A stretch of 26,130 nucleotides of DNA, from positions 1-26,130 of IMG/VR virus record IMGVR_UViG_3300022540_000106, one strand, 5' to 3'. This DNA comes from a virus. A model generated the notes under the pieces. That model ran no database searches, was not told the DNA's origin, and was given only the letters and a program-made list of their open reading frames with translations. Shown one piece after another: positions 7,672 to 25,874 of the stretch. The number at the start of each line of letters is the position of its first letter. Within the stretch, counting starts at the first letter, position 1. Both the position numbers and the translations under genes were made by a program.

Positions 7672-7967
7672 TGAAACATTTAGGGCAATCTAAGAAACAC
7701 GCAGGACTGGAGGCCGTAGTTAATATAGGTAGCGGGATGTTTATAGCATTCACATTATCTCAGTTAGCTTCTTACTGCGCTCCTGAGATACGTATGTATA
7801 TCTGGACAGGGTTTGAGTGGAATGTGGGAGCAGGAAGTAATCTATTTATGACTGTGGTACTCACGTTTGTAAGCATGGCTAGAAGTTATGTCTGGCGGCG
7901 AGTGTTCAATAAGGTGCACGTTAAAAAGTTAACTGAAATGTTGGAGGGTAAAGATTATGCCAAATAA
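7671..7967 (+). CDS. DUF7220-type small membrane protein
   Basis: A 98-residue protein. The start ATG overlaps the polymerase stop codon by one base and follows GGGAGG (7658-7663); upstream in-frame codons are less well placed. It matches the DUF7220 pattern: an N-terminal QSKKHAGLEAVVNIGSG segment (family 'QSRRxSLVEAVxNVxxG'), a first hydrophobic helix FIAFTLSQLASYCAP, and a second helix ending in FVSMARSYVWRRVFN (family 'FTxxSxxRSYxxRRxF'). Function unknown; the family is widespread in phages and genomic islands. It overlaps the next gene by 11 bases. Confidence 0.75.
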   Translation: MKHLGQSKKHAGLEAVVNIGSGMFIAFTLSQLASYCAPEIRMYIWTGFEWNVGAGSNLFMTVVLTFVSMARSYVWRRVFNKVHVKKLTEMLEGKDYAK

Positions 7968-8373
7968 AAAGAAAGTCACTGACCCCAAAGCAGCAGCGGG
8001 AAGCGTTAAGATGAGGTTCGATCATATCCCATTAACCGCTTGGGTCGATTTGTCAGATGGGATGATCGACGGTGTACCTAAGTATGGAAAGTTTAATTGG
8101 CTCTCGGTAGACGAGCCACTAGATAACTTAGTTTATGTTAACGCTGCACAAAGACATTTATTATTGTATCTCGCAGGCGAGGACTATGCTAGGGATAGCG
8201 GAAGATATCATATAGCTCATATCATTAGCGGACTATCTGTATTAAGGGACGCTGAGGCTGCGGGTTTAGCGGCAGATGAACGAGTGAAGTTGCCTCTAGA
8301 AGCATTGAATAATTTTGCTAAATCTATTTGCGGAGAAGAGTATGCCAACCTTCCCTTAATAATCAAACCATAA
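7957..8373 (+). CDS. dATP/dGTP diphosphohydrolase-like (MazZ-type domain) protein
   Basis: A 138-residue, probably all-helical protein with the pattern of the dATP/dGTP diphosphohydrolase N-terminal domain family (formerly DUF5664): IPLTAWVDLSDGMIDGVPKYG with KYG at 42-44, NW (47-48), VNAAQRH (61-67), YLAGEDYARDSG (71-82) and HIAHIISG (85-92). In phage phiVC8-type Z-genome phages a protein of this family (MazZ) hydrolyses dATP or dGTP to the monophosphate, feeding diaminopurine synthesis or clearing competing nucleotides. Many phages without modified adenine also carry it. It sits directly after the polymerase and shares the window with a MazG-type enzyme, so nucleotide pool control is the likely role. 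Confidence 0.8.
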   Translation: MPNKKKVTDPKAAAGSVKMRFDHIPLTAWVDLSDGMIDGVPKYGKFNWLSVDEPLDNLVYVNAAQRHLLLYLAGEDYARDSGRYHIAHIISGLSVLRDAEAAGLAADERVKLPLEALNNFAKSICGEEYANLPLIIKP

Positions 8374-8387
8374 TTTAGGAGATTACT

Positions 8388-9566
8388 ATGTCCAGAAGAA
8401 AAGCTAATGATGTAAATGCATGGGCAACTATCATACAAGAATACGAGAATAATTACGGTTCGGGAGAAGGTCCGCCGGGAGAGGATGTTTTTGAGGTGGA
8501 GTTGATGACCCCCAAGCAAATAGTGGAGGAATTAAATAGGACGGTGATCGGACAGGACAAAGCTAAGGAGTTAGTAGCTATCGCAGCGTGGAATAGATTA
8601 TTGTCTATGAAGAATAAAGAACTCGAAAGAGATGATGATTATTATTTTGAAAAGAATAACATACTGTTAGTAGGCAACACAGGTTGTGGTAAAACACATC
8701 TCATCAAGGCGTTGGCAGAGGCTGTGTCTTTGCCTGTGACTATACAAGATGCCACCGGCTTCACCTCTGCTGGGTATGTGGGCAGGGATGTAGATGAATG
8801 CATCATTGATTTATTTGAAAATGCTCGTACGTTGGTCGAAAAAAATTACGATACCCTCTACATGAGTCGTTACGATAAGTCGGACTTAATTAAGAAAATA
8901 GCTGAGTACGGAATCATATATGTAGATGAGGCAGATAAGATACGTACCAGTAATAGTAATGGTAAAGATGTTAATGGGCGCAGCGTACAAGAAGCCTTCC
9001 TAAAACTAGTGGAAGGTACAGAGTGTACCATAAAGAGTGTCACATATTGTGGCACCGTGGACACATCCAACATGTTGTTTATCTTTGGCGGAGCTTTCTC
9101 GGGACTGGACCAAATCATCTCTAAACGCTTGGACGGTAAGAGTATTGGATTCTCTGCCCCACTCTTATCTAAGGCTGAGAAATCTAATCTATTGAACAAG
9201 GCTTCCATATCTGATTTTACAGCGAACGGTATGATACCCGAGTTAATGGGTCGGCTCCCCATCATCGCCGTACTAAAAAACTTAGATAGAGATATGATCT
9301 ATAAAATCTTCACTCTTCCGGAACGTTGTATCATGTCCCAAGTAGTGAATGAGTTCAAATCATATGGAGTGGAGGCATACTTCACCGAGGATGCTGTAAA
9401 CCATATTGTAGATCAAGCTCTAGAACTTAAGCTTGGTGCGCGAGGGTTGAAGAGTGTATGCCAACAATCCCTACGACCCCTACTCTTTCATCTACCCTCA
9501 AACGAATTAGATAGACCGTTGATGATAACGAAGAAACTACTATTAACTATAGGAGAAGACGAATGA
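8388..9566 (+). CDS. ClpX-like AAA+ protein unfoldase
   Basis: A 392-residue AAA+ ATPase resembling ClpX over its whole ATPase region. Visible: VIGQDKAK box (53-60), Walker A GNTGCGKT (96-103), pore loop GYVGR (129-133; ClpX GYVGE), Walker B YVDEAD (178-183), the FGGAFSGLD segment (233-241), an IGF tripeptide (253-255) where ClpX carries its ClpP-docking loop, the box VII Arg in GRLP (R289) and sensor 2 GARGL (350-354). The N-terminal Cys4 zinc domain of cellular ClpX is absent, replaced by about 35 residues without Cys. The segment holding the RKH pore loop is shortened and lacks RKH. An extra stretch of about 20 residues precedes Walker B. It lies within the replication operon, overlapping the exonuclease gene by 4 bases. 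It probably unfolds or remodels selected proteins, perhaps delivering them to host ClpP. Confidence 0.93.
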   Translation: MSRRKANDVNAWATIIQEYENNYGSGEGPPGEDVFEVELMTPKQIVEELNRTVIGQDKAKELVAIAAWNRLLSMKNKELERDDDYYFEKNNILLVGNTGCGKTHLIKALAEAVSLPVTIQDATGFTSAGYVGRDVDECIIDLFENARTLVEKNYDTLYMSRYDKSDLIKKIAEYGIIYVDEADKIRTSNSNGKDVNGRSVQEAFLKLVEGTECTIKSVTYCGTVDTSNMLFIFGGAFSGLDQIISKRLDGKSIGFSAPLLSKAEKSNLLNKASISDFTANGMIPELMGRLPIIAVLKNLDRDMIYKIFTLPERCIMSQVVNEFKSYGVEAYFTEDAVNHIVDQALELKLGARGLKSVCQQSLRPLLFHLPSNELDRPLMITKKLLLTIGEDE

Positions 9567-10399
9567 AAGAGCAGCACAGTATAACAGAGAGGGTTGCTTT
9601 GGTGGATGCTGATAGTCTTATCTACTCTATAGGCTACCAGACAGATAAGCTAGAAGAGGACAGAGTATTCGCTGTCAAATTGTTGAGGCAATCCGTAGAT
9701 AACATTCTTGATGGTGCAGAATGTTCAATGTTAGAATTGTATTTGGGTACGGACACCAACTACAGAGATTCTATAGCTACGATGAAGCCTTACAAAGGCA
9801 ACAGGGAGACATCAAACCGTCCACAGTTCTATAGGGAGCTACGTGCGTACTTAGTAAAGCAACGGGGAGCGGTATTGTGTGTGGGCCAGGAGGCTGAGGA
9901 TGTAGTAGGTATCCGTTCATATGAGTTCGATAACTTCGATGACTTTGTTATCTGCCATATAGATAAAGACCTTGACATGTTAGCAGGAGTGCACTACAAT
10001 TACAGAACAGGAAAGAGTTATGAGGTTGATAGATATCAAGCACTTAGAAACTTCTATGTACAGCTGGTCACTGGGGATAGTGTGGATAACATCCCAGGGC
10101 TGTATCACCAACTGCTTATAGATGAGGATGGGGAGGCTGCATACAAGTTTAGGTACAGTAGATATAAATCAAAATTAATTAAAGATTTATCTGAGCTAAC
10201 CGATGAATTGAGTATGTGGCAGCATGTGTACGGTATCTACAAGGAGTGGGGCCAAATAAGTAAGCACGGCATAGACCGCATCCTTGAGATAGGACAACTG
10301 CTGTGGTTACGTAGGGAACAAGGGGAGCTCTGGGTGCATCCGATAGATAGGAAGTTTGATTATATAACTGACGACATACGGGAGAACAAAGATGAGTGA
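9563..10399 (+). CDS. 5'-3' exonuclease (T7 gp6 / FEN-like)
   Basis: A 278-residue PIN-fold nuclease of the PolI 5' nuclease / T7 gp6 type. Metal-binding and signature residues: ALVDADSLIY (12-21; D15, D17), the KPYKGNR motif (75-81), GQEAEDVVG (108-116; E110, E112, D113), CHIDKDLDML (131-140; D134, D136) and VTGDSVDNIPG (169-179; D172, D175). The Gly-rich helix-hairpin-helix expected after DNIPG is degenerate. Roles in T7-like phages are RNA primer removal, recombination and host DNA breakdown. It supplies the activity missing from the separate polymerase. Starts at an ATGA overlap with the ClpX-like gene and overlaps the MazG gene by 8 bases. Confidence 0.9.
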   Translation: MKEQHSITERVALVDADSLIYSIGYQTDKLEEDRVFAVKLLRQSVDNILDGAECSMLELYLGTDTNYRDSIATMKPYKGNRETSNRPQFYRELRAYLVKQRGAVLCVGQEAEDVVGIRSYEFDNFDDFVICHIDKDLDMLAGVHYNYRTGKSYEVDRYQALRNFYVQLVTGDSVDNIPGLYHQLLIDEDGEAAYKFRYSRYKSKLIKDLSELTDELSMWQHVYGIYKEWGQISKHGIDRILEIGQLLWLRREQGELWVHPIDRKFDYITDDIRENKDE

Positions 10400-11916: not shown

Positions 11917-12092
11917 TGACTATGAAGTGGAAGGAGTGTTCGCCAGATGAGGTGAAAGTTTCCCGACTAATTTGGAGTCAAGGTACTCCACACGACCCCG
12001 CAGGTTATTATGTTAATCTGGAATTCAGAGGTGCAAGTATACAAGCATTTTTAGCCTACGCTGACGAGCCTACAGGAGACGACGATGAGTAA
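11916..12092 (+). CDS. small hypothetical protein
   Basis: A 58-residue reading frame from ATG 11916 to TAA 12090-12092: it begins M-T-M-K-W-K-E-C and ends TGDDDE. The ATG shares its first base with the preceding stop codon (TAATG), an AAGGAGG site lies just upstream, and the 3' end overlaps the next start by 8 bases, so it fits the operon exactly. The acidic tail and the short beta-like core (AGYYVNLEFRGASI) give no family. Confidence 0.55.
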   Translation: MTMKWKECSPDEVKVSRLIWSQGTPHDPAGYYVNLEFRGASIQAFLAYADEPTGDDDE

Positions 12093-13689
12093 ATCAATTC
12101 ATAATGAGATAATAAATTTCTGCAAAGAGTTCTATAAATTGAAAGCTAGGTTTCCCACGCTTAGTGACTTGCACGAGAATGGTATCACTCGTGAGGTGGT
12201 CAGACAGAATTTTAAGACTAAGTCTAATCTACAGAAGGTAGTAGAAGAAGAGATGGCTTCAGCTTATCTAGAGGCTCCTAAAGAGAATACGGTATCTAAG
12301 TTTAAGAAGAATCAAAAGAAGTATGTAATCATAGGAGTGCAGAACAATACCTACATCGACCAAGGATTGATGAAGTGTTTGGTGCAGTACGCGAAGCACA
12401 ACAAAGCAGAGATACTCGCGTTGCCTATGTACTACCGTAACCCTACTAACATCACAGAAAGCAATAGGATAGAGAAGGAATATTGGTGGGATGATAACTT
12501 CCCTGGGAAGTATGTTACCAAGAATATGAACCTAGGGCCCCACTTAAAACTAATGCCCGAGCATCGCATCAGCGTCACAGCCATCAATCCTTTGAGTGGA
12601 TTAGAATCTATCGGAGGTAAGTACTCAGCTATATACTCCAACTCCCACCTCATGATGAAGGTTATACCGGAGAGTCAAGATAAGATTCCCCACATCATGC
12701 AGACTACGGGTACGGCGTGTAAATTAGATAACTTTAGTAAGACTAATGCTGGAGGTAAGGCTAAAGGGTTTGCAACTCGGTGCGCATTGGTTGTGGAGTT
12801 GTCAGGAGACATATTTCATTTACGTCAGTTGGAATATAAGAGGGGCGTGGTATGCGACTTGGATAAAGTTTATACCCACACCGATGTGATGGATATCTCA
12901 GATTATGGAACATCTAAGATGGTTTGGGGAGATGTTCATGCCGAAGTGGCTGATAAAGTTGTGGTTAGAGTTTCAAAGGAGTTGTCGGATAGGTGTAACG
13001 TGGACTGCCATTATTTAGAGGATGTGCTGGATTTCATAGGTCAGAATCATCACAACCGTAAGAATGTCATTATGAAGTATATGTTGAATAAACACGGTAA
13101 GGACATTGTTAGTGCAGCTATAAAACAGGTGGCGCAATTCATCCTAGACTTAACAGATAGGGCATCAGTAAAGATAGTAGATAGTAATCACCACGACCAT
13201 ATAACTAAATGGATTAACGAATGTAATTTTAAATATATGGAGGCAGATAACGCCTACTTCTATATATGCCTTATGAAGAAGATAATGGAAGAGGTTGTAT
13301 TAGATGAGCAGCAATTGACTTTATCGAATGATAATGTGCTGCGTATGGCACTTGAGCTGGTAGGAGGCGACTCCGCGGCAGATGTAGAGTTCCTAAGTAG
13401 GAATGAATCTCATACGGTGAGCGGCATCGAGTTGAGCCAACACGGAGACAAGGGGCCTAACGGTTCGAGGGGGAGTATTACAGCTCTGTCACGTACTAAC
13501 AGTCCTATGGTCATTGGCCACTCACACACTCCCGGGATACATAAGCACATCTACCAAGTAGGTAAGACAGCGTATAAAAATCAGTCGTATACCCAAGGGT
13601 ATTCGTCTCATTTGCATAGCCATTGTATCATCTACCCAAACGGTGGACGTACTCTTATACATATCCTCGGAGGTCAGTATAGAATCTAA
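12085..13689 (+). CDS. metallophosphoesterase-like protein with N-terminal DNA-binding-like segment
   Basis: A 534-residue protein. Metallophosphoesterase-type motifs occur in order: WGDVHAE (281-287; GDxH), FIGQNHHNR (317-325), VDSNHHDH (365-372; like the GNHD box) and GHSHTPG (478-484; GHxH). Further His residues at 507-513 and SQHGDKGPNG (451-460) may add to the metal site. Residues 20-55 (RFPTLSDLHENGITREVVRQ and following FKTKSNL) resemble the short helical repeats found beside phage HNH nucleases ('FPTxxD...IRxxFGS'), so the N-terminus may bind DNA. A nuclease or phosphodiesterase acting on DNA is the best guess; T5 A1-type host DNA degradation proteins are a possible comparison. It is the last gene of the rightward block and ends directly against the opposing tail gene. 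Confidence 0.7.
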   Translation: MSKSIHNEIINFCKEFYKLKARFPTLSDLHENGITREVVRQNFKTKSNLQKVVEEEMASAYLEAPKENTVSKFKKNQKKYVIIGVQNNTYIDQGLMKCLVQYAKHNKAEILALPMYYRNPTNITESNRIEKEYWWDDNFPGKYVTKNMNLGPHLKLMPEHRISVTAINPLSGLESIGGKYSAIYSNSHLMMKVIPESQDKIPHIMQTTGTACKLDNFSKTNAGGKAKGFATRCALVVELSGDIFHLRQLEYKRGVVCDLDKVYTHTDVMDISDYGTSKMVWGDVHAEVADKVVVRVSKELSDRCNVDCHYLEDVLDFIGQNHHNRKNVIMKYMLNKHGKDIVSAAIKQVAQFILDLTDRASVKIVDSNHHDHITKWINECNFKYMEADNAYFYICLMKKIMEEVVLDEQQLTLSNDNVLRMALELVGGDSAADVEFLSRNESHTVSGIELSQHGDKGPNGSRGSITALSRTNSPMVIGHSHTPGIHKHIYQVGKTAYKNQSYTQGYSSHLHSHCIIYPNGGRTLIHILGGQYRI

Positions 13690-13702
13690 TCACGGTCTAT
13701 AC
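13677..13702. other. inverted repeat spanning two convergent stop codons
   Basis: GTATAGA (13677-13683) and TCTATAC (13696-13702) form a perfect 7-base-pair hairpin with a 12-base loop. The loop holds both stop codons: TAA of the rightward gene (13687-13689) and TGA of the leftward gene (13690-13692 on the other strand). No T-tract follows on either side, so it is at most a weak bidirectional terminator. Confidence 0.4.
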
Positions 13703-14823
13703 GAATCAATCCAGCCTGACTGATTGTCGAAGGCTGCTACAAGGTTACCACTGGAGTCGTAAGCTCTTATGATTCCGGTGGGAGCTCCTCCACTAGTTTC
13801 ATATATCATATGCCCATTATCCTTAGTAGTCTCAATTGTCCCTGTACGACTTCCTCCGGCACCAAAACAGAAGTTCACCTTAGAGGATGCATTCTTTAAG
13901 TTGGTTGGGACCTCAGTATCAAATTCACTAGATACAAATTGTCCCCCATCCAACTTAAGTACATACTTATCATCGACTGGCCATTGGGTTTCCGTAGGTG
14001 CGGAGATTGGGCAGCTCGTGCCGCTTCCTGGAGTACATGCTCGCGAGCTGGTAGCAAACTCCGTAAGCGAGGGGTCCCCAGAAAAATCTACGTGGTAAAG
14101 CCCACCATCAGTGTAATTTCCAGTTACCCAATATTGCCCAGTAACTGAGCCGGCCGCAGCGTCTAGGAATGACGCAATCTTGGCGTCTATTAATTCCGTA
14201 GTCGTAGGATAGAAAGTAGCAAAACTTTCATTGCCGGTGAACCATTCCACCCCACTAGTCCACCCCACTTTGTTGGGCGGAGTTCCCGCGTCCTCCCACT
14301 GCGCCGCCAATTCCTCACCATTAGAATCCAACGTAGCATCTGGAGGTATGAAATCGTTGCGTAGACGAATCTCCACAGCATCCCCAGTATTACAATCTAC
14401 CGCCGTCAGAGAATTTAAAGAATTATTATTTGAGTAGGTTAATCCTGCTGCGGTAACTTGTGGGTGCGACAACTTGGCCGCAGCGTTTATACCATCTATC
14501 ACATCCTCAGCAGATGCTTGCCCAGTGGTTGTGTTGATGACACCATTCTGTGGGTCTGCGGGGTCTAGACCCTCTTCTCCTGCCGTATTAGCTCCCGTCT
14601 TAGAATCCCCTATCCCTTTTGTAGCAGGTAGTTGAGTCTGGTTAGGAGTACCTGATATAGACTCAGAGCCTCCCGTAGTAGGATTAAAGTATCCTATACC
14701 TCTACGCGCAGCTATGGCCGCCTTCTGTAAGGCAGCGTCTAGGATACTTTGGTTAGGGTCTATGCCCACAATGCGTTTAATATCGTCTGCGTATCTATTT
14801 CCCATATCAAGATTTCCCATCAA
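13690..14823 (-). CDS. virion/tail structural protein, unknown
   Basis: A 377-residue Gly/Ser/Thr/Asn-rich protein, the last gene of the leftward tail block and so probably a tail tip or fibre-associated protein. The N-terminal ~120 residues are Ala/Gly-rich and linker-like; the C-terminal part (about 200-377) is rich in short beta-type segments (GQYWVTGNYTDGGLYHVDF, VPTNLKNASSKVNFCFGAGG). Four Cys lie in the second half. Start choice: TTG 14823, ATG 14820 or ATG 14805; the last begins 1 base after the hub-gene stop codon and is equally plausible, because no clear ribosome site separates them. Family not recognised. Confidence 0.6.
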   Translation of the reverse strand: MMGNLDMGNRYADDIKRIVGIDPNQSILDAALQKAAIAARRGIGYFNPTTGGSESISGTPNQTQLPATKGIGDSKTGANTAGEEGLDPADPQNGVINTTTGQASAEDVIDGINAAAKLSHPQVTAAGLTYSNNNSLNSLTAVDCNTGDAVEIRLRNDFIPPDATLDSNGEELAAQWEDAGTPPNKVGWTSGVEWFTGNESFATFYPTTTELIDAKIASFLDAAAGSVTGQYWVTGNYTDGGLYHVDFSGDPSLTEFATSSRACTPGSGTSCPISAPTETQWPVDDKYVLKLDGGQFVSSEFDTEVPTNLKNASSKVNFCFGAGGSRTGTIETTKDNGHMIYETSGGAPTGIIRAYDSSGNLVAAFDNQSGWIDSYRP

Positions 14824-24302: not shown

Positions 24303-25085
24303 TTATTCGTTATCTCTTAATAGTATTCCAAAATGTACTTCTACCGCAGCGGTAGGCGCTGACGCTATCTTAGCCAAGAAACCTACATCTGATAGTTCTT
24401 CTATAGGTCCTAAAGGTGAGTGAAACTCTTTTTGTCCATCTCTGATAATTGCAGCTACACCTAATACTTTCCTCATCGCTTTATAAGGAGCAGATGTATC
24501 TAGTATGCCGGCCCTTTTAACGAGTTGTAATGTAGTTATCTTTGTTGAATCCACACTATAATCAAGTGTGATTATGAAACCTGTTTTCCCTCTGGGTATC
24601 GTATACCAACCTATTTCAGTTTGGCTATCTGGATACCCATTTAAAGATATAGTAGCCCAGTCTTCTGAGCCTGCTGCTTTCTCTATTACTACGTTTGCAG
24701 CATGAGAGCCTGCACCTGTTGTAGCATATGTTCCTGAGTCCAACACGTAGGCACGAGTTAGTCTCAAATATGTATAGACACTATCTGCACCAGCACTCGT
24801 GCCTGCTGTAACTAGTACTTCGTTTATAGGGTCTCCGGAGGCATCTAAACCTTCGATGTATACCGACTGTGCTCCCGAACCTGCGGCGGTGTCGTTTGTG
24901 TTACCCGCCTTAATTCTTAGTTTTGTAGCTCCTGATACTTGAGGCGTTCTGTAAATACCTCCTTCTGATACAGGTACTAACGTAGTATCGACAGCTTTAT
25001 TCTGTCCGAACTTATGAATTATAGATTCCCCTGAATGGGTATTACCCATCAACGCTTCTAAATAGTATGGTGGGTATGCTGACAT
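24303..25085 (-). CDS. structural protein, paralogue B of tandem pair
   Basis: A 260-residue beta-rich protein aligning over its whole length with the next upstream gene (25095-25874). Shared landmarks: HKFGQNKAVDTT (24-35), GGIYRTPQVSGATKLRIKAG, DTAAGSGAQSVYIEGLD, RAYVLDSGTYATTGAGSHAA, SEDWATISLNG, LVKRAGILDTSAPYKAMRKV and the end GILLRDNE. No predicted TM, signal or catalytic motif. Position between the capsid gene and the connector cluster suggests a decoration or head fibre protein. It is not a family I can name. Confidence 0.7.
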   Translation of the reverse strand: MSAYPPYYLEALMGNTHSGESIIHKFGQNKAVDTTLVPVSEGGIYRTPQVSGATKLRIKAGNTNDTAAGSGAQSVYIEGLDASGDPINEVLVTAGTSAGADSVYTYLRLTRAYVLDSGTYATTGAGSHAANVVIEKAAGSEDWATISLNGYPDSQTEIGWYTIPRGKTGFIITLDYSVDSTKITTLQLVKRAGILDTSAPYKAMRKVLGVAAIIRDGQKEFHSPLGPIEELSDVGFLAKIASAPTAAVEVHFGILLRDNE

Positions 25086-25094
25086 CCCGTCTCC

Positions 25095-25874
25095 TTATTC
25101 TTTATCTTTAAGTAGTATCTCAAAACCTACACCTATCTCACTAGTAGTAGCTGATACATTAGCCATTACCCATATGTCAGTATGTTCTTTGAAAGGCCCT
25201 AAAGGTATTTCAAATGTTTGTGTGCCTGAAGATGCTATTCCACTCAACACAAGTAATTCTCTAGCAGCAGTATATGGGGCTGAAGCTCGTAGTATCCCAG
25301 CTCTTTGAAATAGAATAATACCAGTCGTTTTAGTAGTATCTACCGCGTAGTGGATATCCATTAAATAAGCCGTCTTACCTGTAGGTACAGTGTAGGCAGC
25401 AATCTCACTCTGCGCTCTTGCTACACCATTGGCATCTATTATAACCCAATCCTCTGTTCCTGCCGTATTCTCTATTGTAATTACATCCGCATGTGAATTA
25501 GCAACTACAACACTATAGGTTCCACTAGTCCCTACGTACGCTCTGAATATTCTTAACCAGCTAGTAGAAGTACTCGCACTAGCGCTGACTCCAGCAGTCA
25601 CTAAAGTCTCAGTAGCGTAGGCGCCTGTTGAATCTATTCCCTCTAAGACAATAGACCTAGCCCCTGCGCCAGCAGCTGTGTCGGCGACGTCTCCGCCCGC
25701 CTTCACTCTAAGAGTAGTAGCGCCGGCAACTTGAGGTGTTCTCCATATTCCGCCCATCGCCACGGAAGCGAAAGTAGTACCTACGGCATCATTTCTGCCG
25801 AACTTATGTACTACTTTCGCCCCAGAAGGCGCATTACCTGAAACAACATCTACAAAATACGTGGACCTAGTCAT
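25095..25874 (-). CDS. structural protein, paralogue A of tandem pair
   Basis: A 259-residue paralogue of the following gene with the same block order: HKFGRNDAVGTTFASV, GGIWRTPQVAGATTLRVKAG, DTAAGAGARSIVLEGIDSTG, RAYVGTSGTYSVVVANSHAD, TEDWVIIDANG, FQRAGILRASAPYTAARELL and GFEILLKDKE. It starts 19 bases after the capsid terminator hairpin, with a TTTAGGAG ribosome site. The pair probably arose by tandem duplication, and the products may occupy related positions on the capsid. Function unknown. Confidence 0.7.
   Translation of the reverse strand: MTRSTYFVDVVSGNAPSGAKVVHKFGRNDAVGTTFASVAMGGIWRTPQVAGATTLRVKAGGDVADTAAGAGARSIVLEGIDSTGAYATETLVTAGVSASASTSTSWLRIFRAYVGTSGTYSVVVANSHADVITIENTAGTEDWVIIDANGVARAQSEIAAYTVPTGKTAYLMDIHYAVDTTKTTGIILFQRAGILRASAPYTAARELLVLSGIASSGTQTFEIPLGPFKEHTDIWVMANVSATTSEIGVGFEILLKDKE

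Follow-up and report, generated by a model that had tools for sequence, protein, structure and literature searches.

The stretch of DNA analysed here (the window; 26,130 bases of IMG/VR record IMGVR_UViG_3300022540_000106, possibly a fragment) encodes what is by its sequence a ClpX-type AAA+ protein, with the large and small domains and intact ATPase motifs, in which the loop predicted to dock on ClpP is kept and the parts known to receive substrates are lost or rebuilt (Table 1). We consider it rather probable that the protein is a phage ClpX-derived hexameric unfoldase that docks on the host ClpP via its IGF loops and delivers to it proteins other than those that the host ClpX would choose. 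It may redirect host protein-disposal machinery.

Table 1. Coordinates of the ClpX-like gene, its neighbours and the motifs and rebuilt regions of the protein.
Feature	Position	Strand	Basis or remark
dATP/dGTP diphosphohydrolase N-domain-like protein, conserved neighbour	7957..8373	+	PF18909, E 4e-18; 42% identical and syntenic in L001
ClpX-like AAA+ unfoldase gene, 392 aa	8388..9566	+	NCBIfam ClpX, PDB ClpX, predicted fold
N-terminal tail replacing the zinc domain, residues 1-38	8388..8501	+	No Cys; residues 1-19 of low confidence
Walker A GNTGCGKT, residues 96-103	8673..8696	+	G99, K102 and T103 invariant in 66/66 aligned phage ClpX
Pore loop 1 GYVGR, residues 129-133	8772..8786	+	GY and second G in 66/66 aligned phage ClpX
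Helical insert of 19 residues at the HslU I-domain site, approx. residues 153-171	8844..8900	+	Length survey, Huxley match, model
Walker B IIYVDE, residues 176-181	8913..8930	+	DE in 66/66 aligned phage ClpX
Site of the deleted RKH loop, approx. residues 212-222	9021..9053	+	17 aa vs modal 24 aa; alignment
IGF tripeptide, predicted ClpP-docking loop, residues 253-255	9144..9152	+	[IMV]GF in 64/66 aligned phage ClpX
Box VII arginine finger R289	9252..9254	+	66/66 aligned phage ClpX
Sensor 2 GARGL, residues 350-354	9435..9449	+	A351 and R352 in 66/66 aligned phage ClpX
5'-3' exonuclease-like protein (phrog_107)	9563..10399	+	E 1.4e-47; 43-45% identical in L001

Judging from its genes, the window is a tailed-phage genome of small siphophage type. 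The plus strand encodes a T7-like primase-helicase, a single-strand binding protein (SSB), a family A polymerase, the dGTP-diphosphohydrolase-like protein, ClpX, the phrog_107 exonuclease and MazG, and the minus strand carries siphophage-type tail and connector genes. The tail genes are closest to those of Pseudomonas siphophages, at only 24-26% identity, and the matches to the polymerase are scattered over Vibrio and others. The only close relative of the ClpX protein found in 2.9 million viral contigs is encoded by the contig IMGVR_UViG_3300035698_007423 (L001) and is 50-51% identical. In both phages, the stop codon of ClpX and the start codon of the exonuclease overlap by four bases, ATGA. 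A bacterial origin of the gene was rejected on account of the phage genes on both flanks, and a frame or assembly artefact on account of the conservation of the gene and the exonuclease overlap in L001. In agreement with the original prediction, no ClpP gene was found in the window, nor was one found in the L001 record, and neither record contained a match to HslV (PF00227). Both records are possibly fragments, and a phage ClpP may be located elsewhere; a host HslV could also serve. Because neither record contains ClpP or HslV, the partner ClpP would be that of the host.

The protein matches the NCBIfam ClpX family with an E-value of 2.9e-90, and its best solved relative is ClpX from M. tuberculosis (E 7.3e-65). 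It scores below the ClpX equivalog cut-offs (303.1 vs 359 bits and 271.4 vs 370.75 bits) and obtains 175 bits with the HslU equivalog, for which the cut-off is 362 bits. Membership in HslU was rejected on account of this score and the presence of a 19-residue insert rather than a full I domain. The motor elements listed in the original prediction (Walker A and B, GYVGR, the box VII arginine and GARGL) were all located in the open reading frame of 392 residues, and the ATPase motifs are intact, with key residues that are invariant or nearly so among 66 aligned phage ClpX proteins. We built an AlphaFold2 model on this 66-row alignment (mean pLDDT 87, pTM 0.85), and its top matches were ClpX chains of ClpXP complexes, both with Foldseek (E about 1e-28) and with VIA-align (Z up to 35.8 over 341 residues). 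Bacterial ClpX (E. coli, N. meningitidis and M. tuberculosis; PDB 6wrf, 6vfs and 8yd0) shares with the window ClpX the AAA+ motor, the GYVG of pore loop 1, the arginine finger, sensor 2 and the IGF loop, with an identity over the motor of about 36-39% and a fold similarity of Z 34-35. However, the window ClpX differs in that it has no zinc domain, a deletion of RKH, an insert of 19 residues before Walker B and an arginine after GYVG.

The IGF tripeptide aligns onto the IGF loop of ClpX, at the very residues that the original prediction had named. Our survey, which is a sample, comprises 66 aligned phage ClpX proteins among the matches listed, including those of the window and L001, and retention of the tripeptide is the rule (64 of 66 among the matches listed). 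Its glycine is present in 66/66 and its phenylalanine in 64/66 proteins, and only I, M or V occurs at the first position. The entropy of the three columns averages 0.40 bits, as compared to 2.83 bits in the flanking loop. About 10% of the residue triplets in the core are equally conserved, yet the IGF is placed within one of the most variable stretches of the protein. The motif is absent at this place in phage AAA+ proteins that resemble ClpX or HslU but belong to other lineages (L015-L018), namely Proteus PM135, Klebsiella KpCHEMY26, Vibrio phi50-12 and the Erwinia HslU-like protein. Since it can be lost, its retention in phage ClpX suggests that the loop is used, although the near-universal occurrence also fits slow loss. 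From the conservation of the motif, we infer that the window ClpX docks on ClpP. The original prediction was to fall if the tripeptide lay buried in the core, and the model gave no indication of this: the IGF falls in a coil (residues 250-261) between helices in a confident prediction, and it is predicted to be exposed on the basis of this secondary structure and of where the equivalent tripeptide lies in ClpX. Two related phage ClpX proteins have IGL (L055, 5806-7026) or IGI (L083, 2293-3534) replacing IGF, along with a shortened RKH region, and represent natural tests of the docking loop.

The zinc domain is a site where ClpX binds adaptors and substrates, and it is a docking site for several replication substrates. 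As had been predicted, it is missing from the window ClpX: there is no zinc motif in the protein, whose first 38 residues are without cysteine, and there were no matches to zf-C4_ClpX, which does match the ClpX of phage Lak-A1. The predicted absence of the RKH pore loop was borne out as well, as the alignment of phage ClpX proteins reveals a deletion of seven residues in this region. RKH is essential for recognition of the ssrA tag by E. coli ClpX (PMC7112952, PMC9035409), for which reason ssrA recognition by the window ClpX should be abolished or weakened.

A distinctive part of the protein follows pore loop 1 and precedes Walker B. The spacing between these motifs is 41 residues in the window ClpX and 43 in L001, as compared to exactly 22 in all 64 other aligned phage ClpX proteins. 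The model suggests that the region is largely helical, with helices at residues 137-154 and 161-172 and blocks at pLDDT 80-97. An HslU-like protein from Erwinia phage Huxley has a stretch of almost 300 residues at the same site, and the pairwise match between the two proteins halts at residues 154/115 and restarts at 171/403. In HslU, this site is occupied by the I domain, which faces the incoming substrate. The residue that follows GYVG, Arg133, is likewise found only in the window and L001 among the 66 proteins, most of the others having a glutamic or aspartic acid. By sequence comparison, the insert and this arginine are thus what is special to these two proteins among the 66. HslU, including the Erwinia jumbo-phage HslU-like proteins, is an AAA+ relative with an insert at the same place, and the Huxley protein contains GYVGRN, but HslU has a large I domain and no IGF loop, unlike the window ClpX with its IGF and short insert. 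From its position, the insert is a candidate for a new substrate receptor. More tentatively, and with a chance that we put well below even, the insert may be a small-scale equivalent of the HslU I domain that arose independently and substitutes for the zinc domain and RKH as substrate receiver and makes host ClpP a phage-specific protease with its own targets.

Phage-encoded ClpX is not new in itself, as jumbo phages are already known to encode it (PMC6102473, PMC7824862), and a broad scan contained at least dozens more beyond the published ones. The jumbo-phage proteins (Agrobacterium phage Atu_ph07 gp2, Bacillus phage G gp258, PA5oct and the Lak phages) resemble the window ClpX, to which they are 32-37% identical, in the motor and the IGF-type loop, but they have the zinc domain and no insert. 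Bacillus phage G has its own ClpP beside ClpX, unlike the window record. Similar in architecture are the zinc-less ClpX of a huge phage (LR756504, L007/L036) and those of L031/L037/L045, in which RKH is altered and [IV]GF is kept; however, these have no insert and have an aspartic or glutamic acid after GYVG. The combination of a retained IGF with loss of the zinc domain and RKH, on which the original prediction was built, is therefore present but less unusual than was implied, since the IGF is near-universal and zinc-less and RKH-altered forms occur elsewhere. The 19-residue insert, the clade-specific arginine in pore loop 1 and the finding that IGF retention is normal in phage ClpX go beyond that prediction.

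In the phylogeny, the window and L001 proteins form a fully supported clade, the branch to which is very long (1.98 changes per site). No further members of the insert-containing clade were identified in IMG/VR with the single protein, a two-sequence alignment or two clade-specific DNA pattern scans, which only retrieved the L001 contig again. Two matches of one of these patterns in genome_contigs were dismissed as chance, with no homology. The zinc-less proteins L007/L036 and L031/L037/L045 sit on separate branches, and this scatter suggests that the zinc domain was probably lost repeatedly, in a tree that was midpoint-rooted and based on limited sampling. Many of the matches labelled 'Bacteriophage sp.' or otherwise as phage (L002-L005 and L012, in the phages collection) were rejected because they are bacterial clpP-clpX loci, in which clpP lies upstream and ClpX has both the zinc domain and RKH; they are evidently host DNA inside phage assemblies and were treated as contamination. 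The ClpX of Prevotella phage Lak-A1 (MK250017; L008, 2324-4531) is interrupted in frame, right at Walker B (LDEC...GNCDKI), by an insertion of about 310 residues that resembles an intein and is absent from that of Lak-B5 (L009).

The comparison with L001 bears on the partners of the protein. The tail and connector genes of the two phages are mostly 38-88% identical, and the best-conserved early genes are those for the dGTP-hydrolase-like protein (42%), ClpX (50%), the exonuclease (45%) and one small unnamed open reading frame (41%). The polymerases are 23-27% and the helicases 29% identical, and the SSB of the window (phrog_112) has no detectable match in the L001 contig, where the gene in that slot belongs to phrog_862, of unknown function. 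Since ClpX was kept while the polymerase and SSB diverged or were swapped, its role is seemingly not tied to a particular polymerase or SSB. The original prediction had read the location in the replication operon as favouring remodelling of replisomes, and this is not what the pattern of conservation suggests. Within the primase-helicase of the related phage (L001, 13-1554; L006, 2-2551), there is a Hint domain of intein type (PF05203, E 6e-13).

In the mechanism that we propose, the protein would form an ATPase-driven, ClpX-like hexamer in which the motor (Walker A and B, sensor 2, the arginine finger and the pore-1 tyrosine) and the ClpP plug are kept, and the IGF loops would dock on host ClpP. 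The face that meets substrates would be rebuilt by loss of the zinc domain, which removes a known adaptor and substrate site, deletion of RKH, an arginine next to pore loop 1 and the gain of a helical hairpin at the HslU I-domain site. Such an entrance would select other substrates, and, as far as two genomes allow a comparison, the target or partner would more plausibly be a protein of the host, or one that both phages have kept, like the overlapping exonuclease, than the polymerase or SSB. It is already known that phages redirect host Clp proteases via small adaptors and that jumbo phages carry near-complete ClpX; the adaptor of SPO1 for host ClpCP (PMC6873191) is an example of the former, in contrast to the replacement ATPase proposed here. 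If this is true, a small siphophage-type ClpX without the known receptor parts, but with a new one and a ClpP plug, would amount to a protease re-targeted by nature. It would be direct evidence of the parts of ClpX on which substrate choice depends, and it could reveal host or phage proteins that a virus needs removed.

A different role, which we regard as unlikely, is that of a ClpP-independent remodelling chaperone that dismantles the complexes in which phage DNA is replicated or recombined, in the way that the MuA transpososome is taken apart by host ClpX. In favour of this, the gene lies between those for the DNA polymerase and the exonuclease and overlaps the start codon of the latter in both phages, and ClpP was found in neither record. 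However, the strong constraint on the IGF loop is not accounted for, the zinc domain that would serve as docking site for replication substrates is missing, and the polymerase, helicase and SSB are strongly different or from other families in the two phages even though ClpX is conserved. It is considerably less probable that the protein has a dominant-negative effect and blocks host ClpXP, either by assembling together with host ClpX subunits or by occupying ClpP. The similarity to bacterial ClpX over the motor and the IGF, which would allow competition for ClpP, are in line with this, but a blocker needs neither a working motor nor a specific new insert, and the ATPase residues are all intact.

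Re-targeting of host ClpP could also take the special form of an anti-restriction function, in which the phage ClpX and host ClpP destroy the translocating subunit of type I restriction enzymes and mimic restriction alleviation by host ClpXP. Host ClpXP is known to degrade HsdR in the course of restriction alleviation (PMC4231737, PMC11109961), and expression from the early region would fit, but nothing in the sequence links the window ClpX to HsdR, and we give this idea if anything a slightly smaller chance than the dominant-negative one. That the phage acquired the gene from a host and that this copy has no function is hardly credible: the single close relative found in the viral contigs searched speaks for it, but the reading frame is open, all catalytic residues are present in a second phage at 50% identity, the neighbours and the overlap are conserved, and the very long branch that separates the clade from cellular-type ClpX excludes a recent pickup. 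Docking on host ClpP with an altered choice of substrates is thus the reading that we prefer.

Some other genes in the window were also noted. The product of the gene at 7957-8373 is labelled 'endolysin; inhibits RNA polymerase' in PHROG 2252, as opposed to the dATP/dGTP diphosphohydrolase N-domain in Pfam, and the PHROG label may mislead. Two adjacent paralogues on the minus strand (24303-25085 and 25095-25874) are 49% identical, belong to phrog_8198, of unknown function, and have no match in the L001 contig. Also absent from this contig is the gene at 12085-13689, which encodes a relative of the T5 A1 or 'DNA transfer protein' family (phrog_1745, E 1.6e-105), here located in a small siphophage-type genome. 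Finally, the minus-strand gene at 13690-14823 encodes a protein of 377 residues with no Pfam or PHROG matches, and the L001 phage contains a counterpart that is 38% identical.
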